From Candidatus Poribacteria bacterium (GTDB taxonomy: Bacteria > Poribacteria > WGA-4E > PCPOR2b), in the NCBI GenBank assembly GCA_028819845.1, contig JAPPKS010000015.1, positions 65,081 through 112,566 on the forward strand: a stretch of DNA of 47,486 nt, read 5' to 3'. Below the pieces are notes generated by a model. That model made no database searches and was not told the origin of the DNA. It saw only the letters and a list, made by a program, of their open reading frames with translations. The translations under genes were made by a program, and so were the position numbers. Positions 5,534 through 45,870 of this stretch are shown here, piece by piece (the first letter of the stretch is position 1; each line of letters begins with the position of its first letter).

Positions 5534-5554
5534 GGCGACTGAAATGCAGTTTTT

Positions 5555-5657: not shown

Positions 5658-5703
5658 AGTGGTTGGATTGTGTTCAGATTATCGGAGTCGGATCGGGCTT
5701 ACG

Positions 5704-5812
5704 AAAAGCGTTGGGTTACGCTTTATTGATTTTCGAAATCGCGCGATTCAATATCAGTGGCGCAATTATACCATCTGTAAGAAATTGATATATGCCGCTT
5801 AACCCAACCTAC
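5704..5812 (-). repeat. AACCCAACC-type dispersed element, inverted copy
   Basis: Begins AAAAGCGTTGGGTTACGC and ends CGCTTAACCCAACCTAC, the exact reverse arrangement of the element at 5555-5657. The two copies face each other about 46 bp apart and form a large imperfect inverted repeat downstream of trpC. Confidence 0.65.
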
Positions 5813-6071
5813 AGGACTGTGGGAGAGGCTTCCTAGCCTCGATTATCGTTCAGTTTTTGTAGGTTGGGTTAAGCGATCAACTCAGCGAATTGCGAGTGAT
5901 TAGCGAGTGCGATAGAAATTCTCAGGGCTATACAACGCGGATTCTCCACGCACCAAAGCGCCAGCGGCGCGAAAGGTATATAGCATGCGGAGGCACCATA
6001 TATCCAAAGCCCCAGCGGGGCGACAAGTGTGTCTGTGAATTGTCAAGAAAACCTAGCTTTGGAGGTACATA

Positions 6072-6302
6072 ATGAGTCAAGACGAATTAAGCCCCGACAT
6101 CTACAAAGAAACACTTGAATTTCTGCGAATTGCCAATCGTGCCGTCAAAAGAGCGCAGGAAGAAAACCGCAAAAAAGGCATCCCAAACGTGTATTCTTAT
6201 AATGGTCACATCTACTACGAATTGCCGAACGGCGAACTGACCAAGGAAGATCCCCTCAAAGATGCAAATAAACCGGATGGAGATAAAAGCTATTGCAGCT
6301 AA
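6072..6302 (+). CDS. Small conserved-looking protein, copy 1 (possible antitoxin)
   Basis: 76 aa. No named family recognised. The first half is predicted helical and charged (YKETLEFLRIANRAVKRAQE). The second half has IPNVYSYNGHIYYELPNGEL, which reads as two short beta strands around an Asn-Gly turn. TTGGAGG lies 6 nt before the ATG, an unusually good ribosome site. The helix-then-hairpin pattern and size fit small antitoxin-like proteins, and the next different gene downstream is a minimal nucleotidyltransferase, but this is only a suggestion. It is identical in DNA and protein to the gene at 6581. Confidence 0.7.
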   Translation: MSQDELSPDIYKETLEFLRIANRAVKRAQEENRKKGIPNVYSYNGHIYYELPNGELTKEDPLKDANKPDGDKSYCS

Positions 6303-6580
6303 AACTCATTAATTTACTTATCGGTCTGTGGGAGAGGCTTTCTAGCCTCGATTATCAATTGGATTTTCTAGGTTGGGTTAAGCGGTCAACTGAGCGAATT
6401 GCGAGTGATTAGCGAGTGCGATAGAGATTCTCAGGGCTATATAACGCGGATTCTCCACGCACCAAAGCGCCAGCGGCGCGAAAGGTATATAGCATGCGGA
6501 GGCACCATATATCCAAAGCCCCAGCGGGGCGACAAGTGTGTCTGTGAATTGTCAAGAAAACCTAGCTTTGGAGGTACATA

Positions 6581-6811
6581 ATGAGTCAAGACGAATTAAG
6601 CCCCGACATCTACAAAGAAACACTTGAATTTCTGCGAATTGCCAATCGTGCCGTCAAAAGAGCGCAGGAAGAAAACCGCAAAAAAGGCATCCCAAACGTG
6701 TATTCTTATAATGGTCACATCTACTACGAATTGCCGAACGGCGAACTGACCAAGGAAGATCCCCTCAAAGATGCAAATAAACCGGATGGAGATAAAAGCT
6801 ATTGCAGCTAA
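6581..6811 (+). CDS. Small conserved-looking protein, copy 2 (possible antitoxin)
   Basis: 76 aa, identical base for base to the gene at 6072, including the TTGGAGG ribosome site and the flanks. It arose by the 509-bp tandem duplication. It ends 81 bp before the nucleotidyltransferase gene at 6893, so this copy is the one placed to be co-transcribed with it. Perfect identity means either a very recent event or ongoing gene conversion. Confidence 0.7.
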   Translation: MSQDELSPDIYKETLEFLRIANRAVKRAQEENRKKGIPNVYSYNGHIYYELPNGELTKEDPLKDANKPDGDKSYCS

Positions 6812-6892
6812 AACTCATTAATTTACTTATCGGTCTGTGGGAGTGGCTTCCTAGCCTCGATTATCAATCAGTCGATTTCTCCTTGTGTAATT

Positions 6893-7231
6893 ATGAACCG
6901 AATTGACTATAAAAATAACGAACACATCGCAACCATGACAGACCGCATCGTGCGAGGCTTTCGTCCCGAGCAAATTATTCTCTTCGGTTCGCATGCTCGC
7001 GGCGAGGCGCATCGGCATAGCGATGTAGATCTGCTCGTAGTCTACTCCGAATGTGCCGACAAGCGAAAAGCCGCGATTGAGATTCGACGAGTCCTTATAG
7101 ACATGCCCGTCCCTAAAGATATCATTGTTTCAACGCCGGAAGAGCTTGACCGAAAGCGAGACTGGATTGGTTCGGTGCTGCGCTACGCCCAGCAGGAAGG
7201 GATGAAACTTTACGAAAGCGATCTCAAATGA
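6893..7231 (+). CDS. Minimal nucleotidyltransferase (MNT) domain protein
   Basis: 112 aa, the usual length for the MNT half of HEPN-MNT pairs. Motif IILFGSHARGEAHRHSDVDLLVV at about residues 29-51 gives the G-S-x(2-3)-G hallmark and the two metal-binding aspartates (DVD) of the polymerase-beta superfamily. A third acidic site would lie near PKDIIVS. Such proteins act as antitoxins that transfer AMP to the HEPN ribonuclease partner. Its stop overlaps the next start as ATGA (7228-7231), the coupling normally seen with a HEPN gene, but only a 27-codon fragment follows (see 7228-7311). Confidence 0.88.
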   Translation: MNRIDYKNNEHIATMTDRIVRGFRPEQIILFGSHARGEAHRHSDVDLLVVYSECADKRKAAIEIRRVLIDMPVPKDIIVSTPEELDRKRDWIGSVLRYAQQEGMKLYESDLK

Positions 7232-7311
7232 AAACAACGAGTCGGGAACAGCAACTACCATCCCTTCATGTAGCACAACCATGCACCATGATTTATCGAA
7301 AAACTGATTAA
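7228..7311 (+). pseudogene. Possible remnant of a HEPN toxin gene
   Basis: Starts by a 4-nt ATGA overlap with the nucleotidyltransferase gene and reads MKTTSRE, a plausible HEPN N-terminus, then QQLPSLHVAQPC and a stop after 27 codons. A HEPN partner would be about 110-140 aa with an Rx4-6H motif, which is absent here. The coding signal of the next gene starts within 25 bp, so the partner was probably cut away when the following cassette arrived. This rests on position and coupling; the homology itself is too short to prove. Confidence 0.35.
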
Positions 7312-7331
7312 AGTTGCCATTGGGTATTTTT

Positions 7332-9851
7332 ATGGGACATGGAACAGTCAATATCAGGTTGAGACCAATCAAGCTAGCATTTCTAGTCAATCCTAATGAT
7401 GAGGATTCCCTACTGAAAGCCATAGAAATCAATACATTTCTTTGGGGAGGGAGGTATAACCCAATCATCCCGACCTATAAGGAAATTCCGGCACATTGGG
7501 AAGATCGCCCGTCTAAAAATCTGACTTCCCAAGACGTTGCATTTGGGTATTTGGATAACTTCGACCCGGATTATGTGGTTCCAATGGGCGAGTGTTCTGA
7601 TTATCCTTTTGATGTGGGCAATCGGCGGAAGATTGATGACGTTGAAGAAATACTTGAACCAGTTAAACAGTACGGAACACCGATGTACGGAATAGGTCTC
7701 TTTGAGGTCCTAAGTTACTTCATTGATCGGGAACTCAAATTCCAACGAAAACACCCACTGGAGGTATGTATACCTCGTTTTGGCACTGACTTTCACCCTT
7801 TTCTCGCCGGTGTTTTTGGGATATTGTCTGAAAATATTGACAACATCTTTTGGGATAACTTTGCAGTGGTTTTAGAAGCAAAAAAAATTGATTGTTCCGA
7901 TTCAAACTACGCTGAAATTCTCAAACCTGAAAACCTGTTTTTGAGACGCATGACTAACTTCTATCTTAAATCTATACCCAGTCGACCGCGCTGGGGGCAG
8001 TGTGTCTTCCTTCTTGATGCATCCAAGCTCCTTGATATTATGGATTACTGGAATCTTCGAGCTATTGGCTGGGATGTAATTCCTGTACCCAAGCAATTTG
8101 CACGATTTGACAAAACAAAGCAGCTTATACTAAATTTTATTGAACAAAATTACGTTCCTCACCACGCAAATCCCGAAATCTTTCAATATACGACCATTCT
8201 TAAGAGCCGCTCTATATCTAAAGATGAGCATAAACACTTTGTTGACTCGCTTGACATTTCTCGTCCTGATGAAAACCACAGAAGGTCAAAAGTATCGGTT
8301 CAATCTTGGTATCCGCGAATCTGGAATGAGTGGGCGAGACGTCCAGACCATGTTGAATGTTGCAATCTTGAAGCTGATGCCGAGGAGCATGATATATCAA
8401 CGAATGAGGAGATCGTTCGCTTTAAAACACTTGACCCGAAGTTCACCAGTCGCTTCGGAGGACATGGAGAAGCACGTTTTGCGAATGAAATTGATTTAAG
8501 GCTATATGACGACAAAGAGTTGTTTGCGGAGGTGGTTCCCGAGGGAGACCGAGAACTTGCTAGAGTTATCGGCGGGTTTGGTCTCCGTGATTGGCGTCTA
8601 TCTAGAAAGGGACCGGTTTACTTGTCACGGCACTCAAAATGGACAGTTTCTATTTCTCTACCTCAAGCGGAGGCGGTTGTTATAAAATGGCTGGAGTCGA
8701 AGGAATGGAGAGTCGAACTTTCACCTGCCGGTCATATTGCCAAGCAAATGATACGACAACTGGGCGGCAAAGGCGGCACTGGGATTCTAGCGAGAAAAGC
8801 AATCATTGAACTTTTGAATGAGATTAACAGCAAACAGAAACAACCGATTTTGGCTGGAACTTTATGGCAGAGAACTAAGGCGATTGCAGAACAAATTATT
8901 CCGGAAACCGCGAACTTGACAAATCTTGTGAGAGATCCTGAATTAAAGAGAGTTCAACGCAGTATCATCCAGCAATTAACTAGGAACAAAGTTCTTCAAA
9001 TAGGAATGAAAATACAGTGCCCGGAGTGCACAAAACATTCGTGGTATTCGGTGAAGAGTGCTGATTATGAGTTGCAGTGTTCAGAGTGTCTTGCAGAGTT
9101 TTCATTTCCTTCTGAATCTGAGGAGGTCAAATGGTCGTATCGCACACTTGGTCCATTCAGTTCGACTAATCAGGCTGATGGTGCTTACACAGTGTTATTG
9201 ATGCTACGGTTCTTTTCCGACTTCTCCTTGCTAGGTGGCGCGACAACCCCACTCACGAGTTTCAAAGCGAAAAGAGATGGAATAGAGCTAGAAGCCGACC
9301 TTGCGCTGTTCTTTCAAGCGTCCAAATTTGAGGATTCCAAAACGGAAGTTATTTTTGCCGAGTGTAAAACGTTTATTGACTTTCAGAAGAATGATGCGGA
9401 TAAAATGGGAAGATTGGGCGAGGCGTTTCCGGGGGCAGTTCTAGTGTTTGCCACCCTGAAAGAATCTCTGAGCAACGAAGAAAAAGCAATTTTGTGCCCT
9501 CTGGTGAATCGCTGTCGGGAATATTGGAAGAATGAACGTCCAGTTAATCCTGTGCTGATTCTTACGGGAACGGAACTTTTCGCGGAATTCGATCTGGCAA
9601 AAGCTTGGGAAGATGCTGGTGGTCTCCGTGCCACATACGCCAAGAGAATTGGACCAAGAGACCTGCTTGAACTCTGTGATATAACGCAACAGGTTTATTT
9701 GGGCATGGACTCGTGGCATCAATGGCTTGATGAGCAGAGAGAAGCACAGTTTCGGCAGCTATGTGCAGCTCGGGGGTTGAACTGGGACACAATGACTGAA
9801 ACGGAACGCCAAGACTTTGTTGACGACCTCGTCCATGAGGATCGTGAATGA
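7332..9851 (+). CDS. Large putative defence nuclease: unknown N-terminal domain, zinc ribbon, PD-(D/E)XK domain
   Basis: 839 aa from ATG 7332; an in-frame TTG at 7314 is possible. The N-terminus (residues 5-110) has an alpha/beta look, with LRPIKLAFLVNPNDEDSL and FLWGGRYNPIIPTY, and I cannot name it. A four-cysteine zinc ribbon lies near 562-585 (CPEC, then CSEC). After it, a PD-(D/E)XK-like nuclease core is visible: E654/D656 in ELEADLALF, then AECKTF with E677 and K679, followed by a helix and AVLVFATL. The final 40 residues (CAARGLNWDTMTETER, then DLVHEDRE) look like a small helical appendage. The stop overlaps the PIN gene start by ATGA. I infer an anti-phage or restriction role; the target is unknown. 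The codon and AT content is higher than in flanking housekeeping genes. Confidence 0.8.
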   Translation: MGHGTVNIRLRPIKLAFLVNPNDEDSLLKAIEINTFLWGGRYNPIIPTYKEIPAHWEDRPSKNLTSQDVAFGYLDNFDPDYVVPMGECSDYPFDVGNRRKIDDVEEILEPVKQYGTPMYGIGLFEVLSYFIDRELKFQRKHPLEVCIPRFGTDFHPFLAGVFGILSENIDNIFWDNFAVVLEAKKIDCSDSNYAEILKPENLFLRRMTNFYLKSIPSRPRWGQCVFLLDASKLLDIMDYWNLRAIGWDVIPVPKQFARFDKTKQLILNFIEQNYVPHHANPEIFQYTTILKSRSISKDEHKHFVDSLDISRPDENHRRSKVSVQSWYPRIWNEWARRPDHVECCNLEADAEEHDISTNEEIVRFKTLDPKFTSRFGGHGEARFANEIDLRLYDDKELFAEVVPEGDRELARVIGGFGLRDWRLSRKGPVYLSRHSKWTVSISLPQAEAVVIKWLESKEWRVELSPAGHIAKQMIRQLGGKGGTGILARKAIIELLNEINSKQKQPILAGTLWQRTKAIAEQIIPETANLTNLVRDPELKRVQRSIIQQLTRNKVLQIGMKIQCPECTKHSWYSVKSADYELQCSECLAEFSFPSESEEVKWSYRTLGPFSSTNQADGAYTVLLMLRFFSDFSLLGGATTPLTSFKAKRDGIELEADLALFFQASKFEDSKTEVIFAECKTFIDFQKNDADKMGRLGEAFPGAVLVFATLKESLSNEEKAILCPLVNRCREYWKNERPVNPVLILTGTELFAEFDLAKAWEDAGGLRATYAKRIGPRDLLELCDITQQVYLGMDSWHQWLDEQREAQFRQLCAARGLNWDTMTETERQDFVDDLVHEDRE

Positions 9852-10255
9852 AGCCCATAGCCGTCTATGATACAAACATTTTACTATCTGGGCTGGGTTG
9901 GAAAGGGGCTCCTTATCGCTGTATTGAACTAGCAAGACAGGGCAAAGTTGAAGGATTGACTTGTTCTGAAATACTGAACGAACTGATGGAGAAGCTAGCG
10001 ACGAAACTCAAATTTTCGCAGCCCCAAGTAACAGACACGGTCGCAGACCTACTCAGTTTTCTGCGGCTAGTCCAGATCGCTAACACGCTCAAGATAGTTG
10101 AGACCGATGCGGACGACGATAAAATAATCGAATGCGCTGTTGTCGGTTCAGCAACTCATATTGTCACCGGAGATTGCCGTCATTTATTGCCACTCAAAAG
10201 CTATCAGGGGATTCTTTTCGTCGCAGCAGCAGATTTTTTCGCCCAATTCCAATGA
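9848..10255 (+). CDS. PIN-domain putative toxin (COG1569-like)
   Basis: 135 aa, normal for the family. PIN domains are metal-dependent ribonucleases and serve as toxins of type II modules. The acidic residues are all there: D8 in VYDTNIL, E41 and E45 in SEILNEL, D90/D91 in DADDDKIIECA, and D109 in IVTGDCRHLLPL, the standard COG1569 order. The start overlaps the previous stop (ATGA, 9848-9851), so it is translationally coupled to the 839-aa nuclease. No separate antitoxin gene precedes it. The C-terminal tail of the upstream protein may fill that role (inference). Confidence 0.9.
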   Translation: MKPIAVYDTNILLSGLGWKGAPYRCIELARQGKVEGLTCSEILNELMEKLATKLKFSQPQVTDTVADLLSFLRLVQIANTLKIVETDADDDKIIECAVVGSATHIVTGDCRHLLPLKSYQGILFVAAADFFAQFQ

Positions 10256-23835: not shown

Positions 23836-23876
23836 TGCGCTTGTACGGCAGCATTTTAAAACTGAATATTTATTCG

Positions 23877-24052
23877 ATTCAGGTGCTAGCAATCGTTTGC
23901 GATTGCGGAGAATAGGGAAGCGCGGTGAGAATCCGCCACGGCCCCGCCACTGTGAACGACGAGTAATCGTGTCCACGATGCCACTGTCCCAGCGCGTTGA
24001 GATGGGAAGGCGGACACGGGTTGTCGGTAGTCAGGAGACCTGCCTGAAGCGA
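23877..24052 (+). ncRNA. Cobalamin (B12) riboswitch
   Basis: The conserved core is easy to read: GGTGC near 23882, GGGAAGCGCGGTGAGAATCC at about 23925, GGCCCCGCCACTGTGAA, GCCACTGTCCC, GGGAAGGCGG, and GTAGTCAGGAGACCTGCC at about 24027. TTCAGG at the start pairs with CCTGAA at the end to form P1. These are the AdoCbl-riboswitch landmarks in correct order. A strong terminator (24140-24174) lies between it and the gene, so control is probably by premature termination when B12 is plentiful. Confidence 0.97.
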
Positions 24053-24139
24053 GTTTCACACAGAGTTTTCGCGGGAAGGCTGTGAACCAGAGACTTTGCT
24101 CCTTTTGCCGAAGCGGCGGCGTAGGAATAACGAACTGCA

Positions 24140-24174
24140 CCCCAGTTTTCTAAATGAAAACTGGGGTTTTTTTT
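24140..24174 (+). terminator. Intrinsic terminator of the riboswitch expression platform
   Basis: Perfect 11-bp stem CCCCAGTTTTC-TAAAT-GAAAACTGGGG followed by eight T. It lies about 90 nt after the aptamer and 90 nt before the start codon. Confidence 0.93.
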
Positions 24175-24264
24175 GTTTCTGGAGTCCGAAAAAAGGCTGT
24201 TTCCGTTAGCAGTCCTTCCACACCTCAAACGGTATTTTCCATATACGAAAGGACAGTCGAACCT

Positions 24265-25959
24265 ATGAAGAATAGACTCCAATATGCGTCAGTATTCGTC
24301 GCCACGGCGTTGATGCTTGTTGCATTTACGGCGTCAGCCGCAAATGAGGTTCAAAATCTGGCGGTGGTCGTTAATGGATTGCGAGATTTAGAATCTCTCT
24401 CCATTGTTGACCTTGATGAACCGGATGTCGAACAAGCAGTAGAGAATGAGATTATTCCACTCGGATCTGCTCCACGCGATATTGAGATTCGAGGCGATGT
24501 GGGATATGTTGTCAACACCTGGAGTCACAATTTGCAAGTTATCGATATAAGAAATAGAGTCAGCGTCGGAACAATCCGACTTGGGGATAACACCGAACCT
24601 CAGGAAATCGCATTCGTCAGCGATTCCAAAGCGTATGTCACGTGTAGCGGGACGAATGATATCAGGGTGGTGGATGTAAATGGGCGAAGCGTTATTAACA
24701 CCATCCCCGGCGGTTTGAAACCGACGGGGATAACGATAATTAATGACAAGGCTTATGTGACAAACTCGGCGTGGGAGTTTGATGGACAGGTCACCTACAA
24801 GGACAGTAGTGTTACAGTGATTGATATAAGGACGGATACTATCTTAACCACGATTGACGTCCCGACGAACGCTACAGGCATTACAAACGACGGTGAATCT
24901 AAAGTCGTCGTAATCACGACAGGGGATTACGCCACTATCTTGGGCAATCTTGTAATTATCGACGCAAACCGCGATGAAGTTGAAAAGGTCGTTAAGCTCA
25001 GATCAACACCAGCCCATTCGCTCGTCATAAACAGTATGAATCACGCATTTTTCACCGGTGGGGACGGTTGGTTCACAAACTTAGGTCTTATGATTTACGA
25101 CCTTGAGCGCCAAAAGTGGATACGTGATCGAAACGATGCGCTTGCGGATTTCGCTGGAGGTTCAGGGATAGCCATTGATGAAAATGACAACATTTATGTC
25201 GCTGTGCCGGATTGGACCGGGGCAAGGCTGGATGAACTGCGTGTCATGGCGCCTGATGAAACGCTTGACAGAACATACCGCGTCGGCCCTGGTGCGAGCC
25301 ACGTGGCAATTGCACGGATTCAACCGCTTGAACCGCCGCCGGTTGATGTAAACAGCGACGGCGTCGTTGACGTAGCCGATTTAGTGCTCGTCGCCGGCAA
25401 TTTCGGCCAGACAGGAGCCGCAGGCGATATCAACTCGGATGGCGTCATCGACATCTCTGATTTGGTGCTCGTCGCCAAGCGTTTCGGAGAGGACGTTGCC
25501 GCCGCGCCGCCGTATCGGCAATTGCGATCCGTCAACGCCGCGGTCGATACCGCACATATTCAACGCGCGATTACTGAATTAGAATCGTACCCCGATCAGT
25601 CCCCCATCATCCGGTTTATTGCCGACTATTTACGGGCGTATCTTACATCGGCGTCTCCAACTGTGTTAAAAACAGAATTGCTCGCAAACTTCCCGAATCC
25701 GTTCAACCCGGAGACCTGGATGCCGTACCACCTCGCCCGCGCCGCCGATGTTACGCTCACTATCTATGACAAAAAAGGCGCAGTAGTCCGGGAATTGAAT
25801 GTCGGGCATCAGCCTGCAGGACTATACGCCGATACAACAAAGGCAGCGTATTGGGACGGCAAGTCGGAGACAGGCGAACTCGTCTCAAGCGGCGTCTATT
25901 TCTATCAACTTCGCGCGGGAGATTATTCACAAGTGCGCCGCATGGCAATCCTCAAGTAA
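24265..25959 (+). CDS. Secreted YVTN-type beta-propeller protein with dockerin and FlgD-like C-terminal domain (candidate B12-binding surface protein)
   Basis: 564 aa from ATG 24265 (AAAGGA 11 nt upstream); the frame is open further left, but that part lies inside the terminator. Signal peptide 1-25 ends SASA. Residues about 30-350 hold repeated blades such as NLQVIDIRNRVSVGTIRLGD, IRVVDVNGRSVINTIPGG and VTVIDIRTDTILTTIDVPTN: a YVTN/YncE beta-propeller. Residues about 357-410 form a type I dockerin with two calcium loops (DVNSDGVVDVADLVLV, DINSDGVIDISDLVLV). The end, from FPNPFNPETW, is a FlgD-like/secretion-type Ig domain (WDGKSETGELVSSGVYFYQL). The B12 riboswitch implies a role in cobalamin uptake. 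BtuG of Bacteroides, a surface B12 binder, is also a beta-propeller. The dockerin could dock to the cohesin protein encoded next. Confidence 0.92.
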   Translation: MKNRLQYASVFVATALMLVAFTASAANEVQNLAVVVNGLRDLESLSIVDLDEPDVEQAVENEIIPLGSAPRDIEIRGDVGYVVNTWSHNLQVIDIRNRVSVGTIRLGDNTEPQEIAFVSDSKAYVTCSGTNDIRVVDVNGRSVINTIPGGLKPTGITIINDKAYVTNSAWEFDGQVTYKDSSVTVIDIRTDTILTTIDVPTNATGITNDGESKVVVITTGDYATILGNLVIIDANRDEVEKVVKLRSTPAHSLVINSMNHAFFTGGDGWFTNLGLMIYDLERQKWIRDRNDALADFAGGSGIAIDENDNIYVAVPDWTGARLDELRVMAPDETLDRTYRVGPGASHVAIARIQPLEPPPVDVNSDGVVDVADLVLVAGNFGQTGAAGDINSDGVIDISDLVLVAKRFGEDVAAAPPYRQLRSVNAAVDTAHIQRAITELESYPDQSPIIRFIADYLRAYLTSASPTVLKTELLANFPNPFNPETWMPYHLARAADVTLTIYDKKGAVVRELNVGHQPAGLYADTTKAAYWDGKSETGELVSSGVYFYQLRAGDYSQVRRMAILK

Positions 25960-25975
25960 GCCCGTAAACAGCCAG

Positions 25976-26012
25976 AAGAAACCGAGTTTTTTTCTTCAAA
26001 ACTCGGTTTCTT
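25976..26012 (+). terminator. Stem-loop after the propeller gene, possible terminator
   Basis: A perfect 15-bp stem, AAGAAACCGAGTTTT and AAAACTCGGTTTCTT, with a 7-nt loop. No T-run follows on either strand, so termination may be weak or the hairpin may protect the mRNA end. Confidence 0.6.
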
Positions 26013-26142
26013 GAGAACCTGTTTGAAAATTCAATTTTTTACAGCACCGGTTGTCTTAAGCCAAAGCCCCAGCGGGGCGACAGATTATAGCCACTCAAAC
26101 GCACAAGAATGGCTTGGTCACCTATTATTCAAACAAGCTCTT
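26013..26142. repeat. MITE-like element, family B, complete copy
   Basis: 130 bp with terminal inverted repeats GAGAACCTGTTTGAAAA and TTATTCAAACAAGCTCTT. These equal the ends of the IS5-family element at 13525-14421, so it is probably an internally deleted or mobilised relative. The interior has AAAGCCCCAGCGGGGCGACA, a hairpin motif also present in the 509-bp duplication. It lies between the propeller and cohesin genes. Confidence 0.7.
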
Positions 26143-26233
26143 AACCGTGCAATTGAGAACATCGGATTTCAAGCGTTAAGTGTAGAGGATTTCAACGCTT
26201 CAACATTGAGCATTCTATTTAAGGAGAAAACTA

Positions 26234-27283
26234 ATGAAACAGTTGTTGAAGGTTACTTTTTTTGCGGCAATCGTCTGCTTGTCGATTCCAGCGTCCAGTC
26301 TTGCACAGACGGTCGTATCGTTCAATCCACCTGTAATGGAATCACCTGACGCTGCACAGCAATTTACAATTAACATTGACATTACAAATGCAACTGATGT
26401 CTTCGGATATCAAATCGCGCTTACCTTTGACTCTACCGCACTCGCATACGTCAGCGTCCAAAATGGAGACTTCCTAGTGGGATCTATCGGCCCGCCAACG
26501 CTCCCCCCAATCGTCGCAGACGGCGAAATCAAGTTCATCGCAACCCTATTAAGTGCAGTGCCCGGCGTTAATGGAGACGGAACACTCGCAACCGTTACGT
26601 TTGAAGTCGTTGCTGTGAAAGCATCTACACTTGGTCTTGATGTTAAAGTTATTGATTCAAACGACCAGCAGTTGGAATTGACAACTGAATCAGGCACGAT
26701 TACCGGCGCACCGCTCGAACCTGTGAGAACTGAACCGGAAGGTGATGTACTGTCGTTCGAAGCGTCGATTTCGAGTGCAAACACACCAGCCAAAGGCTTT
26801 ATCGCGCTATGGGAAGGGACGATGGAGGTACAGGCGGGTACGTCCATTGAATACCAGGTGATGTTCTCGGGGATTAGCGTCCACACACGAGGCGGTGTCT
26901 ACGCTCACACTGCCGACGGTAGAACCGTTGGTCTCGTTGATGATGCTGCTGGGTCGGATTGGCAACACCGCAAGGTCTCACTCGACGATATTGCCGGCAG
27001 TGAAATTGTTGCGATTACAGTCGGCACGGATAACGGAGACAATCCGGATAATCCGGCGGGGTTATTTGGAATGGTGATTGACAACGTGCAGATAACCAGC
27101 GATGCGGGTGTTTTGACGAAGGTATGGGTTGACGAAAGTACGATTGGCGGTGCGCAGGAGGCGGCTGCGCCGTTCGGCGATTCGACCGGTGTTGAGGCTA
27201 TGCGGGCATTCATTTCTGCCGTTTCTGTTGAACCCCAATCGAAGATGTTGACAAGTTGGGCTCATCTTAAAGCAGCGCGTTGA
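26234..27283 (+). CDS. Secreted cohesin-domain protein with beta-sandwich domain and WxxLK tail
   Basis: 349 aa. AAGGAG is 8 nt before the ATG. Signal peptide 1-25 ends SLAQ. Residues about 28-155 are a cohesin-type domain: FTINIDITNATDVFGYQIAL, LAYVSVQNGDFL and GTLATVTFEVVAVKASTLGL are its hallmark strands. Residues about 175-300 look like a galactose-binding or Ig-like beta sandwich with GIALWEGT-like and VYAHTADGRTVGLV strands. The C-terminus VEPQSKMLTSWAHLKAAR belongs to the tail family shared by five other proteins here. Cohesins bind dockerins, and the preceding gene encodes one, so the two products may assemble outside the cell. No catalytic motif is seen. Confidence 0.88.
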   Translation: MKQLLKVTFFAAIVCLSIPASSLAQTVVSFNPPVMESPDAAQQFTINIDITNATDVFGYQIALTFDSTALAYVSVQNGDFLVGSIGPPTLPPIVADGEIKFIATLLSAVPGVNGDGTLATVTFEVVAVKASTLGLDVKVIDSNDQQLELTTESGTITGAPLEPVRTEPEGDVLSFEASISSANTPAKGFIALWEGTMEVQAGTSIEYQVMFSGISVHTRGGVYAHTADGRTVGLVDDAAGSDWQHRKVSLDDIAGSEIVAITVGTDNGDNPDNPAGLFGMVIDNVQITSDAGVLTKVWVDESTIGGAQEAAAPFGDSTGVEAMRAFISAVSVEPQSKMLTSWAHLKAAR

Positions 27284-38828: not shown

Positions 38829-40313
38829 ATGACAGCTAATCGAAAATACAAACTGTATTGCAAACTATCCCTGATGCAGATTTCGATTTTTTCCTTTATC
38901 GGTGTCTGGTTTTGCCTTTCAGGTTGCGGTGAAGAGGAAACACCCGCACCAATCATTGTCAAAACGACAACGCCGCCTACGCTTATCGCTACTAATGTAC
39001 AAGGCGGCCCGATTCCTGTCAATACACCCATTATCCTCATCTTCAGTAAGAGAGTCCATTTAACCTCCGCACAACGCGGAATCTCAGTTCGCTCTGCCGT
39101 TGACGCCGAAGTTGTCAAAGGGGTTATCACCCTTGAGCAGCAGAATCGCGCAGTCAAATTCACACCTACAGAACAGATGACAGCCGGAGCTTACGTCCTG
39201 ACAGTTTTGGGTGTTGAGGATTTGGAAGACAATACATTAACCACGCCTTTTTCAATCTTTTTCAATGCGGTTGAAGTCGATATCACACAACAACCCGCAG
39301 ACGTTATACCACCCACGGTTGTAAATACTATCCCTACTGAAGGCGGCTCCGTCAAAGCAACGGGCAGTCTTGTAGTGCGTTTCGATGAAGAAGTGGATCC
39401 GGTTTCAGCCCAAGCGGGCATCGTGGTTTCCGGCATTGAAGGGGTCGTGGAGGTTGGCGGCGCTGTGGCTGTATTTAAACCGCAGAAGCCGATGGCGGTT
39501 GGTAAACACACACTAGCCGTTCTTGGCGTAAGGGATTTGGCGGGGAATGTCATGGGAACGTCCGTGCTACTTACCTTTGAAGTCATTGCACCGCCCGCTG
39601 ATGAGATTACCCCGCCCGTTTCAAGACCGCCGCTAATTACCGGTGGGCGGGTTATCTTCTGGGAGGCTGAGAATTTCACCGCGAAAAACGGAAATGGAAT
39701 TGAGGTGTTTAAACCTCCGCATCAGGACACAGGTGCAAATAACGTACAATATAAGATTGTCGAAGCGTCTAACGGCGCGTTTGTCGGTTCAGAAAACGGC
39801 ACGGGAGGTGTCTCGAACTCTTGGCTCAAGTATGTGTTTAACGCCTCAGTGGCAGGGGATTGGTATTTCTGGGGTAGGGTCATTGGCCCTCCGAATAGCG
39901 ACAATTCTTTCTTCTGGGGCGTGGATATCAAGGATGCTGATGCCAATTCAGTGGACGATGCTAACATCAACATCTGGGATTTCAATGAGGCGGCCGGCGG
40001 CTCGGTGAATTTCCCATTTGGCAATCCGGCGCCGGCGAAAATTTTACATCAGTGGGCGTGGTACCGGTTGAGCAGCCGCAGCGGACCTTTTCCGGGCAGA
40101 GGTTCATACGACAATCCAACGCCTCTGGAATTGACGGCGGGCAAGCATACGTTTCACCTCATTGATCGGGAGGATGGGGCGTATTTGGATGCTGTTTTTG
40201 CAACGACGGACAGTGCATTCGATGCCAATGAAACGCCTCCTGACGGCAGGCTCGCCGTCGAACCGCACGTCAGATTAGCAACAATGTGGGCAAATCTCAG
40301 GCGACTAAAATAA
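38829..40313 (+). CDS. Lipoprotein with two Ig-like (Big_5) domains, carbohydrate-binding-like domain and WxxLR tail
   Basis: 494 aa from ATG 38829 (AAAAAGGA 9 nt upstream). The lipoprotein signal ends CLSGC, with Cys as residue 34. Two Ig-like Big_5 domains follow: IPVNTPIILIFSKRVHLTSA to LTVLGVEDLEDNTLTTPFSI, and GSLVVRFDEEVDPVSAQAGI to LAVLGVRDLAGNVM. From about residue 285 comes the beta-sandwich domain shared with 41246, 42063, 43079 and 45118: FWEAENFTAKNG, SNSWLKYVFNASVAGDWYFW, IGPPNSDNSFFWGVDI, LELTAGKHTFHLIDREDGAY. The last residues are VEPHVRLATMWANLRRLK. It probably lies on the cell surface and binds polymer or matrix. No catalytic motif is visible. Confidence 0.87.
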   Translation: MTANRKYKLYCKLSLMQISIFSFIGVWFCLSGCGEEETPAPIIVKTTTPPTLIATNVQGGPIPVNTPIILIFSKRVHLTSAQRGISVRSAVDAEVVKGVITLEQQNRAVKFTPTEQMTAGAYVLTVLGVEDLEDNTLTTPFSIFFNAVEVDITQQPADVIPPTVVNTIPTEGGSVKATGSLVVRFDEEVDPVSAQAGIVVSGIEGVVEVGGAVAVFKPQKPMAVGKHTLAVLGVRDLAGNVMGTSVLLTFEVIAPPADEITPPVSRPPLITGGRVIFWEAENFTAKNGNGIEVFKPPHQDTGANNVQYKIVEASNGAFVGSENGTGGVSNSWLKYVFNASVAGDWYFWGRVIGPPNSDNSFFWGVDIKDADANSVDDANINIWDFNEAAGGSVNFPFGNPAPAKILHQWAWYRLSSRSGPFPGRGSYDNPTPLELTAGKHTFHLIDREDGAYLDAVFATTDSAFDANETPPDGRLAVEPHVRLATMWANLRRLK

Positions 40314-40404
40314 TCACCCCGGTTGAAGCGTTGAACTTATCCCCGTTCTTTGGATAGCCAGGAATTATATTTCAGATGAAAAATCTTGACATATAATCAA
40401 CTGA

Positions 40405-40431
40405 GTGTTAAACTTCTTTGAAGTTTAACAC
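40405..40431. promoter_or_regulatory. Perfect palindrome, candidate operator or mRNA hairpin
   Basis: GTGTTAAACTTC-TTT-GAAGTTTAACAC, 12-bp perfect arms with a 3-nt loop. TTGACA starts 13 nt earlier (40387). No T-run follows, so an intrinsic terminator is unlikely. Confidence 0.5.
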
Positions 40432-40538
40432 AACATTTTAATTTGGTTGTTTACGGGAACCCAATACCATCTCGGAGGTCATACAATGCCCACATACTTA
40501 GATTTAGCGTTTATGCTATAATGGATTATTAAGAAATC

Positions 40539-40985
40539 ATGAAAACTCGAGTTTCACTTTTTAGTGTTAGCTCAATGGTTGTGTTGATAATTTTTGTAGT
40601 ATTGGTAGTGCTGTATTCCTGCGTAATTGCAATCCCGCATGGGTTAAGTAGACAACTACCAATAAGGCATCAGATAATTGACATTACTGCGTATATTGGA
40701 AAGTTCATTCCAGTTGCCATAGTAATTACAATTATATTAGATCTGATATGGGGTTCACTGATGATACTTTGGGAATGGTACAAAGGTAGAGTTTATACAA
40801 AAGGCAAATCTGAAGGTATGTCTGAAGGTATGTCTGCAGGTATAATTGAACAACAACAGAAGTGGGAAGAGTGGAATGCCCGTCGATGCAAAGCTGAAGC
40901 TGAAGGTACTAAATTTGATGAACCCCCGCCGCATGCCCAATATGGATCGTCTATAGATGAATCTACCCATAGGAACAAAAACTAG
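40539..40985 (+). CDS. Two-helix membrane protein with charged cytoplasmic tail
   Basis: 148 aa. Two membrane helices, MVVLIIFVVLVVLYSCVIAI and GKFIPVAIVITIILDLIWGS, are followed by a hydrophilic tail. The tail has a short repeat (KSEGMSEGMSAG) and EWNARRCKAEAEGTKFDEPP. The tail pattern W-N-x-R-R-x(2)-A-E-A-x-G is one I associate with small bacterial membrane proteins of unknown function. An extended -10 promoter (TGCTATAAT, 40514-40522) lies only about 17 nt before the ATG, so the leader is very short and no ribosome site is evident. It is monocistronic with its own terminator. Confidence 0.65.
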   Translation: MKTRVSLFSVSSMVVLIIFVVLVVLYSCVIAIPHGLSRQLPIRHQIIDITAYIGKFIPVAIVITIILDLIWGSLMILWEWYKGRVYTKGKSEGMSEGMSAGIIEQQQKWEEWNARRCKAEAEGTKFDEPPPHAQYGSSIDESTHRNKN

Positions 40986-41017
40986 TTAATCCTTAAATTA
41001 CCAGTTCAAACCTCCCA

Positions 41018-41046
41018 CCGTTGGCACGTTCCAACGGTTTTTTTTA
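41018..41046 (+). terminator. Intrinsic terminator
   Basis: CCGTTGG-CACGTT-CCAACGG stem of 7 bp with nine T, 33 nt after the stop of the gene at 40539. Confidence 0.92.
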
Positions 41047-41158
41047 TTCTCTGTACAATTCACGTTGAAATTAACGCATCATGACGATTCAACTTTCCCA
41101 AAAACGCTAGCGCTAATCCTTCCTCCACTGATTAAAACCGAAAATTCTTTTATTTCAA

Positions 41159-41187
41159 TTGACCGAAATTCTGTTTTATGCTATAAT
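41159..41187 (+). promoter_or_regulatory. Sigma-70 promoter with extended -10
   Basis: TTGACC at 41159-41164, 17-nt spacer, TATAAT at 41182-41187, preceded by TGC. The sequence ATGCTATAAT recurs before the genes at 40539 and 43079. Confidence 0.75.
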
Positions 41188-41245
41188 AAGCTATTCTGTA
41201 TCGGTACAGTTTGAAATTGATAACATATTGAAAGGAGAGACATAT

Positions 41246-41965
41246 ATGCGACGAATCACCTTTTTCACATTAGCTAGTGTCGTCGCCTTAAGCCTAATCG
41301 TTTGCACGGCAGATGCACAGCATCAAAGAGGCTGGGAGGCGGAAAACTACACAGACCGCAGCGGCGATGGTATGCAGATTTTCAATTCTCCGCATTCAGC
41401 ATCAAATGGGGGTGAATACACAATTTCTGATGCTTCCGGTGGTGCATTTATCGGTTCTGACAATGGTGCAGGAGGCAGTTCAAATTCTTGGTTTAAATAT
41501 GCGTTCAACGCCCCAGTGGCAGGAGGTTGGTATCTCTGGCTAAAAGGTATCGGACCGCCAAATAGCGACAATTCTTTTTTCTGGGCGATAGATATTGCCG
41601 ATGAGGATGCTGCGTCAGCAGATAACGATCAGATAAACATTATTGATTTCAATGAAGCCGCTGGCTCCTCACAGAATTTCCCGCTTGGCAACCCGCCTCC
41701 AGAAGGCGCGATACATGACTGGATGTGGTTCCGTGCGGGAAGTCGGAGCGGACCATTTTCTGGAGTCGGTGATGCAACGCCTCTCGAATTATCCGCGGGT
41801 ACGCATACGTTGCACATTATGGATCGAGAGGACGGAGCTTATCTGGATGCCTTCTACATAACAACCGATGCTAATTTCAACGCCAATGAAACCGAACCCA
41901 TAGCCGTTGAATCGCAGGGGAAATTAGCCACAACTTGGGCAAATCTCAAGGGCAAAACATATTAA
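41246..41965 (+). CDS. Secreted carbohydrate-binding-like domain protein with WxxLK tail
   Basis: 239 aa from ATG 41246 (AAAGGAGAG 7 nt upstream). Signal peptide 1-24, MRRITFFTLASVVALSLIVC then TADA. One beta-sandwich domain fills the mature part: GWEAENYTDRSGDGMQIFNS, SNSWFKYAFNAPVAGGWYLW, IGPPNSDNSFFWAIDIAD, INIIDFNEAAGS, PLELSAGTHTLHIMDREDGA, YLDAFYITTDANFNANET. It is closest to the C-terminal domain of the lipoprotein at 38829; the phrases IGPPNSDNSFFW and DFNEAAG are shared. The tail is VESQGKLATTWANLKGKTY. It looks like a CBM6/35-type galactose-binding fold, with no enzymatic domain. Confidence 0.88.
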   Translation: MRRITFFTLASVVALSLIVCTADAQHQRGWEAENYTDRSGDGMQIFNSPHSASNGGEYTISDASGGAFIGSDNGAGGSSNSWFKYAFNAPVAGGWYLWLKGIGPPNSDNSFFWAIDIADEDAASADNDQINIIDFNEAAGSSQNFPLGNPPPEGAIHDWMWFRAGSRSGPFSGVGDATPLELSAGTHTLHIMDREDGAYLDAFYITTDANFNANETEPIAVESQGKLATTWANLKGKTY

Positions 41966-42062
41966 TTTCGCCTTTGCGTGACGTGCATAAAATATGGTAT
42001 AACCGCGAATTCCGACAAAATTGACGTTTTTCACAGTCAATTATTACTTGTGGAGGTCACAT

Positions 42063-42812
42063 ATGCGATTCATTACCTTAATCACGCTAGTTGGTCTTGC
42101 CCTCTTGTGCGTGCTTACAATCGAAGCAAGCGCCCAAGAATTTCAATTCGCCGCAGAAGACTTTATCGCGTCCAGCGGAGAACGGTGGCAGATTCTCACG
42201 CCTCCGTTCTCAACCGTGGCATCGGACAACCCGAACCGGGCTCCGGAACTTCCCGACAACCGTGAGTATACCATCACGGAGGCGATCGGAAACGCTTTCA
42301 TCGGCTGGCCTGATGGACCGGATGCGTGTTGCGGGGATGGCAGTTGGGTAAAATATTCGGTTAGCGTACCAGCAACAGGGACATGGTACCTCTGGGCACG
42401 GGCTGTCGTTGCGACGCAGGCAGATAATTCGTGGTTTTGGGCGTTCGATTTGGCGGATGACGAGGTGGTTTCTGACGACGCCAACGGTGCAGGCCCGATG
42501 AACATCTGGGATGTCCTTGAGAGTGCCGATCTGCACGACCGGTATACGCTCAATTGGACCTGGTATCCGCTAGTTAGCCGCAGAGGGCCCCATACCGGAA
42601 CGGAAGTTGGTCAGTATACCGATGATCGAGTGGGTGTGGAGCTTTCGGCTGGCACCCATACGCTCCACTTCAGCTACCGAGAACACTCCCAAATTGATCA
42701 CGTTTGGGCAACCATGGAGCAGACGCGCGACCCGAATGTGGATGCGCCGGCGTCTGTGAATCCGCGTGGGAAATTGGCTGCAAAGTGGGGAGATATCAAA
42801 GGCGGTTTTTGA
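42063..42812 (+). CDS. Secreted carbohydrate-binding-like domain protein with WxxIK tail
   Basis: 249 aa from ATG 42063 (GTGGAGG 7 nt upstream). The signal peptide MRFITLITLVGLALLCVLTI ends ASAQ. The mature part is the same domain in a second sub-type: FQFAAEDFIASSGERWQILT, CCGDGSWVKYSVSVPATGTW, YLWARAVVATQADNSWFWAF, GPMNIWDVLES, VGVELSAGTHTLHFSYREHS and IDHVWATMEQTRDPNVDAPA. The adjacent cysteines in DACCGDG are shared only with the gene at 43079. The tail is VNPRGKLAAKWGDIKGGF. A terminator follows, so it is monocistronic. Confidence 0.88.
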   Translation: MRFITLITLVGLALLCVLTIEASAQEFQFAAEDFIASSGERWQILTPPFSTVASDNPNRAPELPDNREYTITEAIGNAFIGWPDGPDACCGDGSWVKYSVSVPATGTWYLWARAVVATQADNSWFWAFDLADDEVVSDDANGAGPMNIWDVLESADLHDRYTLNWTWYPLVSRRGPHTGTEVGQYTDDRVGVELSAGTHTLHFSYREHSQIDHVWATMEQTRDPNVDAPASVNPRGKLAAKWGDIKGGF

Positions 42813-42846
42813 CCAACACACAAAACATAGTAAATTAGCTAGTCTA

Positions 42847-42876
42847 GGGTGTCCTTAACAGGACACCCTTTTTTTT
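42847..42876 (+). terminator. Intrinsic terminator
   Basis: GGGTGTCC-TTAACA-GGACACCC stem of 8 bp followed by eight T, 35 nt after the stop of the gene at 42063. Confidence 0.95.
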
Positions 42877-42880
42877 GCGC

Positions 42881-42908
42881 TTGTATTATTTTAGGTTCAT
42901 GCTATAAT
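42881..42908 (+). promoter_or_regulatory. Promoter with extended -10
   Basis: TTGTAT at 42881-42886, 16-nt spacer, TATAAT at 42903-42908, preceded by TGC (ATGCTATAAT). It lies directly after the upstream terminator and reads towards the gene at 43079. Confidence 0.65.
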
Positions 42909-43078
42909 TTAGTGCAGTTGGTGACCTCAAAATTGATACCGTCCGATTCCATTTGCAGGGCTGGGTCGACTATTCAGATCATGAGTTTCACCGTAGGGCA
43001 ACCGGTAAAACTCGTCCTATTGTGAAGGATGGGATGGTCACATTTCTAACCACTAACGTTATTACAAGGAGGAGGGCC

Positions 43079-43849
43079 ATGCGACTGCGATATCCAAATT
43101 TACTTATGTTAGTTAGCCTTGTCATATTGAACATTGTCTCTTACGAGGCGAGCGGTCAAACGTTTCAGTTTCAAGCAGAAGACTTCGTTGAGCAACAGGG
43201 GCCGAGCTGGGAAATTCTGAATGTCCCTTATACGGCAGCGGCATCGGGTCACGCCGAACGGGCGGCGGAGCTAATTGATAGTGATGGAAACAAGATACTG
43301 GAATATACCATTGACGAGGCGTTCGGCGATGCGTTTATCGGCGATCCATCGTCCGACGGCGGATGTTGCGGCGACGGTGACTGGATTAAGTATGAATTCA
43401 GCGTCCCCGCAACCGGAACATGGTACATCTGGGCAAGAGCCATTGCACCGACTAGGGCAGAAAATGCGTGGCATTGGGGATTGGATATTGATGGGAGCGA
43501 TATTGAGGCTGGCAACAACGATCAGAATCCGTCCCTAAATGTCTGGGATCTATTCGAGGGAAGCCAGTTCACTTGGTCTTCCGATTGGATGTGGTACCCA
43601 ATCAATAGCCGCAACGGTCCGTTTCCAGGCCTTGAAGTCGATCAACTCACAGAAAACCGTGTCGGCTTGGAAATCTCCGCCGGCAGCCACACCTGGCACG
43701 TCGTTGATCGAGAGCGAGCCTATATCGACATGTTCTGGGCAACAATGGAACAAGCACTGAATCCTAACGTGAATGCGCCAGATGTGGTCTCGGTAGAACC
43801 GCGAGGGAAAATAGCCGCAAAGTGGGGAAAAATTAAACGCGGTTTCTAG
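43079..43849 (+). CDS. Secreted carbohydrate-binding-like domain protein with WxxIK tail
   Basis: 256 aa from ATG 43079, which has AAGGAGGAGG 5 nt upstream; the frame is open to 42953 but lacks a ribosome site there. Signal peptide MRLRYPNLLMLVSLVILNIV ends near ASGQ. Mature domain: FQFQAEDFVEQQGPSWEILN, CCGDGDWIKYEFSVPATGTW, YIWARAIAPTRAENAWHWGL, PSLNVWDLFEGS, VGLEISAGSHTWHVVDRERA, YIDMFWATMEQALNPNVNAP. It is a paralogue of 42063 (same paired Cys, PATGTWY, and ATMEQ-x(3)-PNV-x-AP). The tail is VEPRGKIAAKWGKIKRGF. Confidence 0.88.
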   Translation: MRLRYPNLLMLVSLVILNIVSYEASGQTFQFQAEDFVEQQGPSWEILNVPYTAAASGHAERAAELIDSDGNKILEYTIDEAFGDAFIGDPSSDGGCCGDGDWIKYEFSVPATGTWYIWARAIAPTRAENAWHWGLDIDGSDIEAGNNDQNPSLNVWDLFEGSQFTWSSDWMWYPINSRNGPFPGLEVDQLTENRVGLEISAGSHTWHVVDRERAYIDMFWATMEQALNPNVNAPDVVSVEPRGKIAAKWGKIKRGF

Positions 43850-44091
43850 TCAATACTTTTCAAACGCGGCAAGGCGTAATAGGTAAACTCGATAATTACT
43901 AGATTGAAGTATACCTTCTAGCTAACGGCAAAGGTTGCACACGTTGGATATTGACATTCATCAGAGAGCGTTTAAGCGGGGCCTAAATCAATCACTAAGG
44001 TTTGACGTTCTACTTCCAACACTTCGGCTTGGCGTGCGTGCAGAGCAACGGCTCCCAAGACCACCTACTTCTACGCCCCGGTGACTGAAAA

Positions 44092-44976
44092 ATGGATATA
44101 AGTTTTCAGGCTGATGGGGTAGGTTGGAACCTTGAGAAATGCGCCGCATGGGCACAAGCAAACGACTTTGACTGTGTACGCTTGGCCGATAGCGGTGTGC
44201 TGGAGTCTGGCCGTATTCTCACCGAGGGGCCGGACAAAGTATTGGAGACACTCAATCATTACGGCCTCTATCTTGCAGCTATTACCGCACATTGCAACCT
44301 TCTCGACGACGATGAAAATGTGCGGTGGTCCGAACAGACCCGTCTGATGCAGGCGATCGAATCAGCCAACGTGTTGGAATGCCGCGTGGTAATTACCGGC
44401 AGCGGCGCGCCGGTGAAGAACGGCCGGTTCTACGGCATGTACTCATCGCCGCCTGGAAACCCTAGTGACCGCTCGGAGGAGCTAGTTGAACGCTTTGCCG
44501 AAATGTTTACGCCAGTGGTCAAATTAGCCGAGGACAAAGATATCAAGATTGCCTTGGATGTAGCTGTACGCATGGGAAACATCGGCTGCAACCCTGAAAT
44601 GTGGGACAAAATCCTGGACGCGGTACCCTCTGATCATCTTGGGTTGTCCTGCGACCCGTCACATTGGTTGTGGATGATGATTACCCCAATCGAAGACGTA
44701 ATTCGTGATTACGCTGGCAAGTGGTACTATGCGGATGTAAAAGATTGCGAAGTAAATCCGCACATGCTATATCGACAAGGAATTATTGGCAACTGGTGGT
44801 GGCAGTACCGGGTGCCGGGAAGGGGCACGTTGGATTGGGGCACAGTTATTGGTTCACTGATGGAATCAGGCTACGATTATGTGCTCTGCGTGGAGAATGA
44901 GGACCGCGAAATGCCCGGTCTGGAAGGCATCGCCTACGGTTGCCGACATCTACGCCAATTTTTGCCGCCCGGGTGA
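44092..44976 (+). CDS. Sugar phosphate isomerase/epimerase (TIM barrel)
   Basis: 294 aa. Same fold family as the gene at 28639 but only distantly similar. Seen: ANDFDCVRLADSGVLE, HYGLYLAAITAHCNLLDDDE, VLECRVVITGSGAP, IKIALDVAVRMGNIGCNP, DHLGLSCDPSHWLWMM (metal-ligand Asp and His), WYYADVKDCEVNPHM (Asp in the strand where the family has His-x-K-D), PGRGTLDWGTVIGSLMESGY and YVLCVENED (last Glu). Together these give a probable metal site. It lacks a signal peptide. The Gfo/Idh/MocA gene at 46199 is a plausible partner in cyclitol or keto-sugar catabolism. No clear ribosome site precedes the ATG. Confidence 0.88.
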   Translation: MDISFQADGVGWNLEKCAAWAQANDFDCVRLADSGVLESGRILTEGPDKVLETLNHYGLYLAAITAHCNLLDDDENVRWSEQTRLMQAIESANVLECRVVITGSGAPVKNGRFYGMYSSPPGNPSDRSEELVERFAEMFTPVVKLAEDKDIKIALDVAVRMGNIGCNPEMWDKILDAVPSDHLGLSCDPSHWLWMMITPIEDVIRDYAGKWYYADVKDCEVNPHMLYRQGIIGNWWWQYRVPGRGTLDWGTVIGSLMESGYDYVLCVENEDREMPGLEGIAYGCRHLRQFLPPG

Positions 44977-45117
44977 GCAGATTGTGACCCACCTCTCATG
45001 TCCTCAAGGAACTGCGAGTTACGAACCAACCCCGATTTGCTGGTTTTACCACCCAATCTTGTACCCTTGGTAAATGATACCGTTGTCAGCTCTCACGCAG
45101 ATACTTCAAGCTCAAAC

Positions 45118-45870
45118 CTAATACTGTTGTCTGATATTGCCCCACGTCACCGCCAGTTTCCCTTTCGGCGATACAGCTAACGATGGAAGTACCTTACTCG
45201 GGTCTTGTGACTTATTTGTGGTGGCAAAAATCACATCAATATACATCCCGTCTTCGCGGTGAACGATGTGCAGCGTATGGTCCCCGGCAGACAATCTCAC
45301 AGGTTTTGGATTTTGCCCGTTCTGCGTAGCTTCAGGTCCATTGAACGGTCCCGAACGGCTATTGATTTGGAACCATACCCAGCCGGAGGACAGTTCCCCT
45401 CGGAATTGCGCGGCTTCGTAAAAATCCCATATATTCATGTCCTTATTGTCTTCCGACACCGCCTTGTCATCGTCAAAATCCAGACCCCAATAGATTGAGT
45501 TATCGCCGACTGTCGGCGCGATAGCTCTTGACCATATGTAATAACTGCCTTCTGCCGGTACATTGAACGTATACTTAATCCATGCGCCCCCCAGAACGTT
45601 AATCCTGTCGCCTGGACCGTTGGGAATACCGATAAAGGCGCCGTTGGACGCCTCAGCGATAGAATATTTGCCTTTACCGCGAATCTCCTTTGCCATGTGT
45701 TCATGAACTTGTACCGGGGCACTAAACGGCGGCTTCAATTTCTCCCACTCCTTTCCATCGGAGTCGACGAAATCTTCAGCTTCAAAGTGGAAGGTTTCCG
45801 CATTCATCTGAACAGCAACAAAGTTCATGATGAAAAAGCCAGAAAGAAAGGTAACGGTCATAAATCGCAT
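45118..45870 (-). CDS. Secreted carbohydrate-binding-like domain protein with WxxIR tail
   Basis: 250 aa from ATG 45870 (AAGGAGG 8 nt upstream); the frame is open to 45990, but the upstream part lacks a ribosome site. Signal peptide MRFMTVTFLSGFFIMNFVAV ends QMNA. The domain reads FHFEAEDFVDSDGKEWEKLK, GGAWIKYTFNVPAEGSYYIW, SRAIAPTVGDNSIYWGLDFD, KDMNIWDFYEAAQF, PVRLSAGDHTLHIVHREDGM and YIDVIFATTNKSQDPSKV. It combines features of both sub-types and lacks the paired Cys. The tail is VSPKGKLAVTWGNIRQQY. It is the only member on the minus strand. Confidence 0.88.
   Translation of the reverse strand: MRFMTVTFLSGFFIMNFVAVQMNAETFHFEAEDFVDSDGKEWEKLKPPFSAPVQVHEHMAKEIRGKGKYSIAEASNGAFIGIPNGPGDRINVLGGAWIKYTFNVPAEGSYYIWSRAIAPTVGDNSIYWGLDFDDDKAVSEDNKDMNIWDFYEAAQFRGELSSGWVWFQINSRSGPFNGPEATQNGQNPKPVRLSAGDHTLHIVHREDGMYIDVIFATTNKSQDPSKVLPSLAVSPKGKLAVTWGNIRQQY

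Follow-up and report, generated by a model that had tools for sequence, protein, structure and literature searches.

A short C-terminal tag on unrelated secreted proteins of Poribacteria suggests an undescribed protein-sorting signal

Introduction

MYXO-CTERM is a C-terminal tag that occurs throughout its phylum, where dozens of secreted proteins, varied in their bodies, have it near the stop codon (PMC11980579). This myxosortase-linked tag of the Myxococcota is composed of an invariant cysteine, a transmembrane helix, and an Arg-rich end. The exosortase-linked PEP-CTERM is likewise a short C-terminal signal common to many diverse secreted proteins and comprises a PEP motif and a transmembrane helix, whereas the type A sorting domain of the type IX secretion system (T9SS; model TIGR04183), which also sits at the C-terminus of Sec-exported proteins, is an Ig-like domain of ~70–90 residues. 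Here, we describe a tag of only ~16–20 residues from a Candidatus Poribacteria bacterium: It ends all five members of a protein family encoded at positions 38829–45870 of a 47,486-nucleotide stretch of DNA (the window; assembly GCA_028819845.1, contig JAPPKS010000015.1, positions 65,081 to 112,566 of the forward strand). Like MYXO-CTERM, this tag is phylum-wide, lies near the stop codon, and is attached to varied secreted bodies, but it has neither a cysteine nor a transmembrane helix; from PEP-CTERM it differs in that both the PEP motif and the transmembrane helix are missing.

Poribacteria, which have not been cultured, are dominant among the symbionts of marine sponges. With a tag that occurs in each of the 85 poribacterial genomes sampled, and in many of them on ~100 or more proteins, much of their repertoire of small exported proteins could be recognized at a glance. 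Moreover, it would offer a handle for finding the responsible sorting machine and add a tag without the usual membrane helix to the kinds already known.

Results and Discussion

Sequence and Spread of the Tag

All five proteins of the family end 3–4 residues past the motif A-V-[ES]-P-x-G-K-L-A-T-T-W-[GA]-x-[LI]-K. The corresponding segments lie on the + strand at 40257–40310 (VEPHVRLATMWANLRRLK) in gene 38829, at 41906–41962 (VESQGKLATTWANLKGKTY) in gene 41246, at 42756–42809 (VNPRGKLAAKWGDIKGGF) in gene 42063, and at 43793–43846 (VEPRGKIAAKWGKIKRGF) in gene 43079, and on the − strand at 45121–45174 (VSPKGKLAVTWGNIRQQY) in gene 45118, each gene being named by its lowest window coordinate. A hidden Markov model (HMM) of these five tails matched 103 places in the source genome, and at these loci we found 100 open reading frames (ORFs) in which the tag ends at most 15 residues from the stop codon. 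Alignment of 99 tails on their tryptophan, which is thus invariant (99/99) by construction, yielded the consensus A/S-V-[ESQND]-P-x-[GSD]-K-L-[AT]-T-T-W-[GA]-x-[LI]-K with V in 96, P in 79, K at position −5 in 85, G, A, or S in 99, L, I, M, or V in 97, and a final K or R in 98 of the tails. The last conserved lysine is usually followed by 2–5 more residues, of which arginine is the commonest.

A hydrophobic N-terminal region precedes the body in 89 of the 100 tagged ORFs as judged by a crude hydropathy rule, and several of the remaining 11 are fragments or have uncertain starts. When tails and N-termini were removed, BLAST divided the bodies into four multi-member groups that are unrelated to each other, namely LamG (73), β-propeller (11), the CBM6-like family of the window (5), and cohesin (2), and into nine singletons. 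Pfam assigned Laminin_G_3, PD40, Cohesin, 3keto-disac_hyd, DUF3108_like, or no domain at all to these bodies, and only the last ~16 residues are common to unrelated ones. The tail itself gave no match to any Pfam or NCBIfam model in any of the proteins scanned, and among openly licensed papers we found nothing on this tag in the literature on sorting signals of Poribacteria. Most of the small Laminin_G_3 ORFs (84 matches in the genome) are tagged, and nearly all of those longer than ~390 amino acids (aa) are missing from the tagged set. Tagged LamG genes form tandem runs of at least three on five contigs of the source genome (C26, C35, C22, C4, and C10); the local expansion in the window thus follows a pattern that is general for its tagged genes.

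How the tag is positioned relative to the body can be judged from an AlphaFold model of protein 45118, which was built from 13 aligned family members (mean predicted local distance difference test score (pLDDT) 78.9, predicted template modeling score 0.78). The model is confident over the sandwich, falls below a pLDDT of 50 at residues 208–219, and then reaches the tag, which is therefore predicted to follow a flexible linker and is apparently exposed instead of forming part of the domain. At the tag itself, the model shows a helix of low confidence; the residues of the tag have a periodicity that is closer to an extended strand than to an amphipathic helix, with a strand-like value of 0.359 (0.268 in shuffled sequences) and a helical moment of 0.233 (0.272 in shuffled sequences). 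Because the helical moment lies below that of the shuffles and the strand-like periodicity is higher, we discarded an amphipathic-helix reading of the tag.

In two tagged proteins, a lipobox precedes an acidic run: protein 38829 (window 38829–38960, CGEEE) and another protein of the source genome (s123 at locus L075, CGDDEDE). We take this combination to be reminiscent of the signal for lipoprotein export in Bacteroidota.

Distribution across Poribacteria

With a search profile of 82 tails, the tag was detected in 25 of 25 genomes sampled across the Poribacteria, with 54 to at least 150 matches per genome, counts that are lower bounds in many of the genomes. When the search was widened to 85 Poribacteria genomes, which represent 22 genera and 10 families, every one of them contained the tag. 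One genome from another class of the phylum (G040) shows the same logo and holds 40 tagged ORFs, 32 of which have a signal-like N-terminus, and it adds tagged bodies that are unrelated to those of the source genome.

Outside the Poribacteria, the tag was found in only one of 109 genomes, which were drawn from a wide search for relatives. This genome (G154) contributes two matches (loci L157 and L158, E ∼6e-4), which lie on short contigs (11.2 and 7.4 kb); both are truly C-terminal, four residues before the stop codon, on long proteins of the secreted type. Contamination by poribacterial contigs and gene transfer are both possible sources of these matches, and we therefore call the tag nearly restricted rather than restricted to the phylum. 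The two tails end in RLKGHIGAAGKLTSTWGELKSSNE or a close variant of it and are missing the V-x-P part; the proteins themselves are lamin-tail-like in our reading.

Proposed Role of the Tag and Alternative Explanations

A short, conserved, C-terminal module that is freely recombined among Sec-type proteins is typical of signals for sorting or retention, and its sequence and distribution suggest that we are dealing with an undescribed protein-sorting tag. More specifically, we consider it fairly probable that the tag serves the surface sorting or retention of secreted proteins and is read by a phylum-specific component of the envelope. The five proteins of the window have a three-part build: An N-terminal Sec signal, which is lipoprotein-like in 38829, is followed by the β-sandwich and then, behind a flexible linker, by the tag, a mobile module that ~100 secreted proteins per genome, many of them with unrelated bodies, carry throughout the Poribacteria. 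The proteins would cross the inner membrane via Sec, whereupon the envelope component would recognize the tag and either export them to the cell surface or hold them there. The outcome would be a coat of small binding domains, such as LamG, CBM6-like, cohesin, and propeller domains. The existence of the tag, its place at the stop codon, its occurrence on unrelated bodies, the N-termini that accompany it, and its range within the phylum are shown by the data, whereas its reading by an envelope machinery, the location of the proteins at the surface, and their binding of glycans are what we infer. A still wider picture, which we offer tentatively and would not put at even chances, is an undescribed poribacterial sorting system in which a helix-free C-terminal tag of ~16 residues and an envelope machine bring at least ~100 small binding proteins of each genome to the surface, while larger proteins take the T9SS as a route of their own.

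Several observations weigh against a sorting or retention role. No machine that recognizes the tag was found, the exosortase PF09721 being the one sortase that was sought; the tag has no membrane anchor, no cysteine, and no known sortase motif; the signal-peptide test behind the export-type N-termini was crude; and since 38829 and s123 are also lipoprotein-like, a tag that served only to anchor would be superfluous in these two proteins. Like the PEP- and MYXO-CTERM signals, the tag sits at the C-terminus of many secreted proteins that are otherwise unrelated, as seen in the 100 ORFs, but it does not have their tripartite build of motif, transmembrane helix, and basic end, as its logo contains no hydrophobic stretch. 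Sorting by exosortase was rejected because PF09721 is absent from the source genome and from eight of ten relatives, all of which carry the tag.

The strongest competitor to a separate sorting route is a link to the T9SS, which requires a closer look at this system in Poribacteria. Kamke et al. noted TIGR04183 in this phylum in 2014 and did not find the structural Por genes (PMC3909097). In the 11 genomes we checked, each contains one ORF of ~1,950–2,200 aa that matches SprA_N. The SprA/Sov-like protein of the source genome (2,188 aa; locus L115, positions 3439–10005, on contig C12) matches TIGR04189, the Sov/SprA model, with an E-value of 5.3e-47 at a score of 159.9, which is under the curated cut-off of 200, and it has no sequence match in the PDB. 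Because such an ORF occurs once per genome and that of the source genome matches TIGR04189, a T9SS translocon probably exists in Poribacteria; together with the tag, the SprA-like protein reopens the question of outer-membrane export that was left unsolved in 2014 (PMC3909097). The KLATTW tag could accordingly be conceived as a minimal T9SS signal, with small tagged and large Ig-tailed proteins leaving through the same SprA-like outer-membrane pore. Both signals are located at the extreme C-terminus of Sec-type proteins, and in Porphyromonas gingivalis HBP35 the last 22 residues of the C-terminal domain are required for translocation to the surface (PMC3120885). As a short stretch at the C-terminus is of consequence in that protein, a T9SS signal of small size is conceivable. 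On the other hand, the five tagged proteins match neither TIGR04183 nor TIGR04131 (both searched at E ≤ 1) nor any other sorting model of NCBIfam, a library that does find TIGR04183 in gene 24154 of the window. Furthermore, the source genome's ~45 proteins with a TIGR04183 tail form a separate set of larger proteins (median 826 aa versus 265 aa for the tagged ones) that does not overlap with the tagged set in real matches, and the score of the SprA-like protein remains below the curated cut-off. We also know of no T9SS-bearing Bacteroidota that carry a KLATTW tag. Judged from these sequence comparisons, a T9SS-linked route is possible yet rather unlikely; it partly coincides with the sorting role proposed above, as a tag that depends on SprA would still be a sorting tag.

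Two explanations dispense with sorting to the surface altogether. The tail might be a C-terminal part that a single old protein family has for structural reasons or by inheritance, and much of the tag count may indeed reflect the descent of one family, as 73 of the 100 tagged proteins fall into a single LamG cluster. This account is very unlikely in our judgment, given that the same tail is found on propeller, cohesin, CBM6-like, and 3keto-disac_hyd bodies that have only the last ~16 residues in common, and that in the model of 45118 it follows a low-confidence linker outside the sandwich. Alternatively, the tail might direct cargo into a bacterial microcompartment or an encapsulin-like shell, as encapsulation peptides are short terminal tags as well. 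Microcompartment genes do occur in Poribacteria (PMC3909097). However, proteins with export-type N-termini, as found on 89 of the 100 tagged ORFs, are not expected in the cytoplasm, and the tail lacks helical amphipathicity; we rejected microcompartment targeting on account of the N-terminal export signals and regard it as extremely improbable.

The Tagged CBM6-like Family

An earlier note, which was made from the letters of the window alone, had described the five genes as a local expansion of one secreted β-sandwich family with two sub-types. All five reading frames are intact, and the short strings that the note quoted as common to certain members are present in the genes it named. Sub-type 1 comprises gene 38829 (38829–40313, + strand) and gene 41246 (41246–41965, +), and sub-type 2 comprises genes 42063 (42063–42812, +) and 43079 (43079–43849, +); gene 45118 (45118–45870) is inverted on the − strand. 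Each encodes a secreted protein with a CBM6-like domain. Two features besides the tag had escaped the note, both of them in 38829: a lipoprotein-like N-terminus with a lipobox (LSG/CGEEE) and two Big_5 Ig-like domains, which lie ahead of the CBM6-like domain and the tag.

The homology of the five paralogues is not due to chance: Their whole-domain alignment has more than 40 invariant columns, and a family profile run against the whole genome (4.6 Mb, 35 contigs) gives exactly five strong matches (E 1e-100 to 1e-125) and beyond these only two weak ones. Pairwise identity amounts to 61% between 38829 and 41246, 51% between 42063 and 43079, and 35–44% in all other pairs. The phylogeny that the note had named as a check, which we calculated as a maximum-likelihood tree with 49 rows, separates the two sub-types and groups 45118 with sub-type 2. 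Gene 45118 had been called intermediate, a description that holds in part, as the tree places it as sister to sub-type 2 (99/96 support). The local expansion itself is real; the sub-types are deeply separated lineages, however, and do not stem from a recent burst.

Relatives of the family are found across the order. Many of its genomes contain a single strong copy and some contain two, with weaker members occurring commonly. In one of them (G014), a Big_5-bearing gene of the 38829 type adjoins a second family copy, and clustering is therefore not unique to the source genome. The tag is retained by almost all complete family members in these relatives. One family member (L068), located on a 3.7-kb contig filed under a metagenome-assembled genome of Dehalococcoidia, has no tag in any frame just downstream; the contig may be a misbinned poribacterial one, or the tag may really have been lost.

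The note had further guessed a fold of the CBM6 or CBM35 kind (carbohydrate-binding modules of families 6 and 35) and named structure prediction as a check, whose outcome supports the guess. Using Foldseek with the AlphaFold model of 45118, we obtained the CBM6 structure 5fui as the best match (E 3.7e-7, probability 1.00), followed by CBM35 and GH115 enzymes, which places the predicted β-sandwich among folds of the CBM6/35 kind. The template modeling score relative to 5fui is 0.72 on the target and 0.42 on the longer query. No Pfam CBM model exceeded its cut-off for the sandwich domain in the family members scanned, and the weak echoes below it (GH115_C with E 0.2, and CBM_6 with E 0.032 in one of 13 members) agree with the predicted fold. 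For lack of a match above the cut-off, we speak of a CBM6-like fold and not of a CBM6. In addition to the predicted fold, the five proteins resemble CBM6 and CBM35 in an EAE start motif and a terminal Asp strand (our own reading); they differ from them in that their sandwiches are ~80 residues longer, match no Pfam model significantly, and are covered by 5fui with the low query score given above. By predicted fold, the five proteins are secreted CBM6/CBM35-like proteins, and on the same basis they probably bind glycans.

Neighboring Genes and Regulatory Sites

The family is adjoined by an isomerase-like gene (44092) and a Gfo/Idh-type oxidoreductase gene (46199), from which the note had derived a dedicated locus that captures a glycan and processes its sugars. 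The adjacency of these genes and the modeled CBM6-like fold, which suits glycan binding, speak for such a locus. Its pathway half nevertheless falls, and only the half that concerns the fold stands: In nine neighborhoods from relatives (L116–L124), no homologue of the isomerase or the oxidoreductase lies beside a family gene; the source genome contains 41 PF01261 TIM-barrel genes, so that one next door means little; the isomerase stays far under the NCBIfam equivalog cut-offs; and no glycosidase or sugar transporter was recognized within the cluster. Taken as a whole, a dedicated capture and processing locus is quite unlikely.

That each gene has its own promoter or terminator, as also claimed, holds only weakly. 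There are two convincing terminator-like stem-loops with a T-run on the + strand, one after ORF 40539 (41017–41038) and one after gene 42063 (42846–42869), and a promoter-like site upstream of gene 41246 (41159–41187, + strand; TTGACC-17-TATAAT, 11/12), but the regional totals are close to those in shuffled sequences (9 versus 9.4 for terminators, which is not above the shuffles, and 17 versus 12.2, standard deviation 4.2, for promoters, which is not clearly above them).

Outside the five-gene region, the window encodes a cohesin-domain protein (26234–27283, + strand; PF00963, E 1.2e-10) that ends in the same tag (27227–27280, +; VEPQSKMLTSWAHLKAAR). It adjoins a dockerin protein with a T9SS tail (24154–27283 for both), and the two could assemble at the surface by cohesin–dockerin contact. 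A near-identical copy of the cohesin gene elsewhere in the source genome (contig C8, locus L156) has no evident dockerin neighbor.

Finally, a gene for a YncE-type β-propeller protein is immediately preceded by a cobalamin riboswitch (Rfam RF00174, 105 bits; window 23864–25959 for both). The protein also contains two dockerin repeats and carries a T9SS tail. The relatives of this propeller in the PDB are surface-layer and YncE family proteins, a group to which BtuG, a vitamin B12 binder of Bacteroides, presumably belongs. From the riboswitch and these relatives, the propeller is likely a B12-capture protein of the cell surface.

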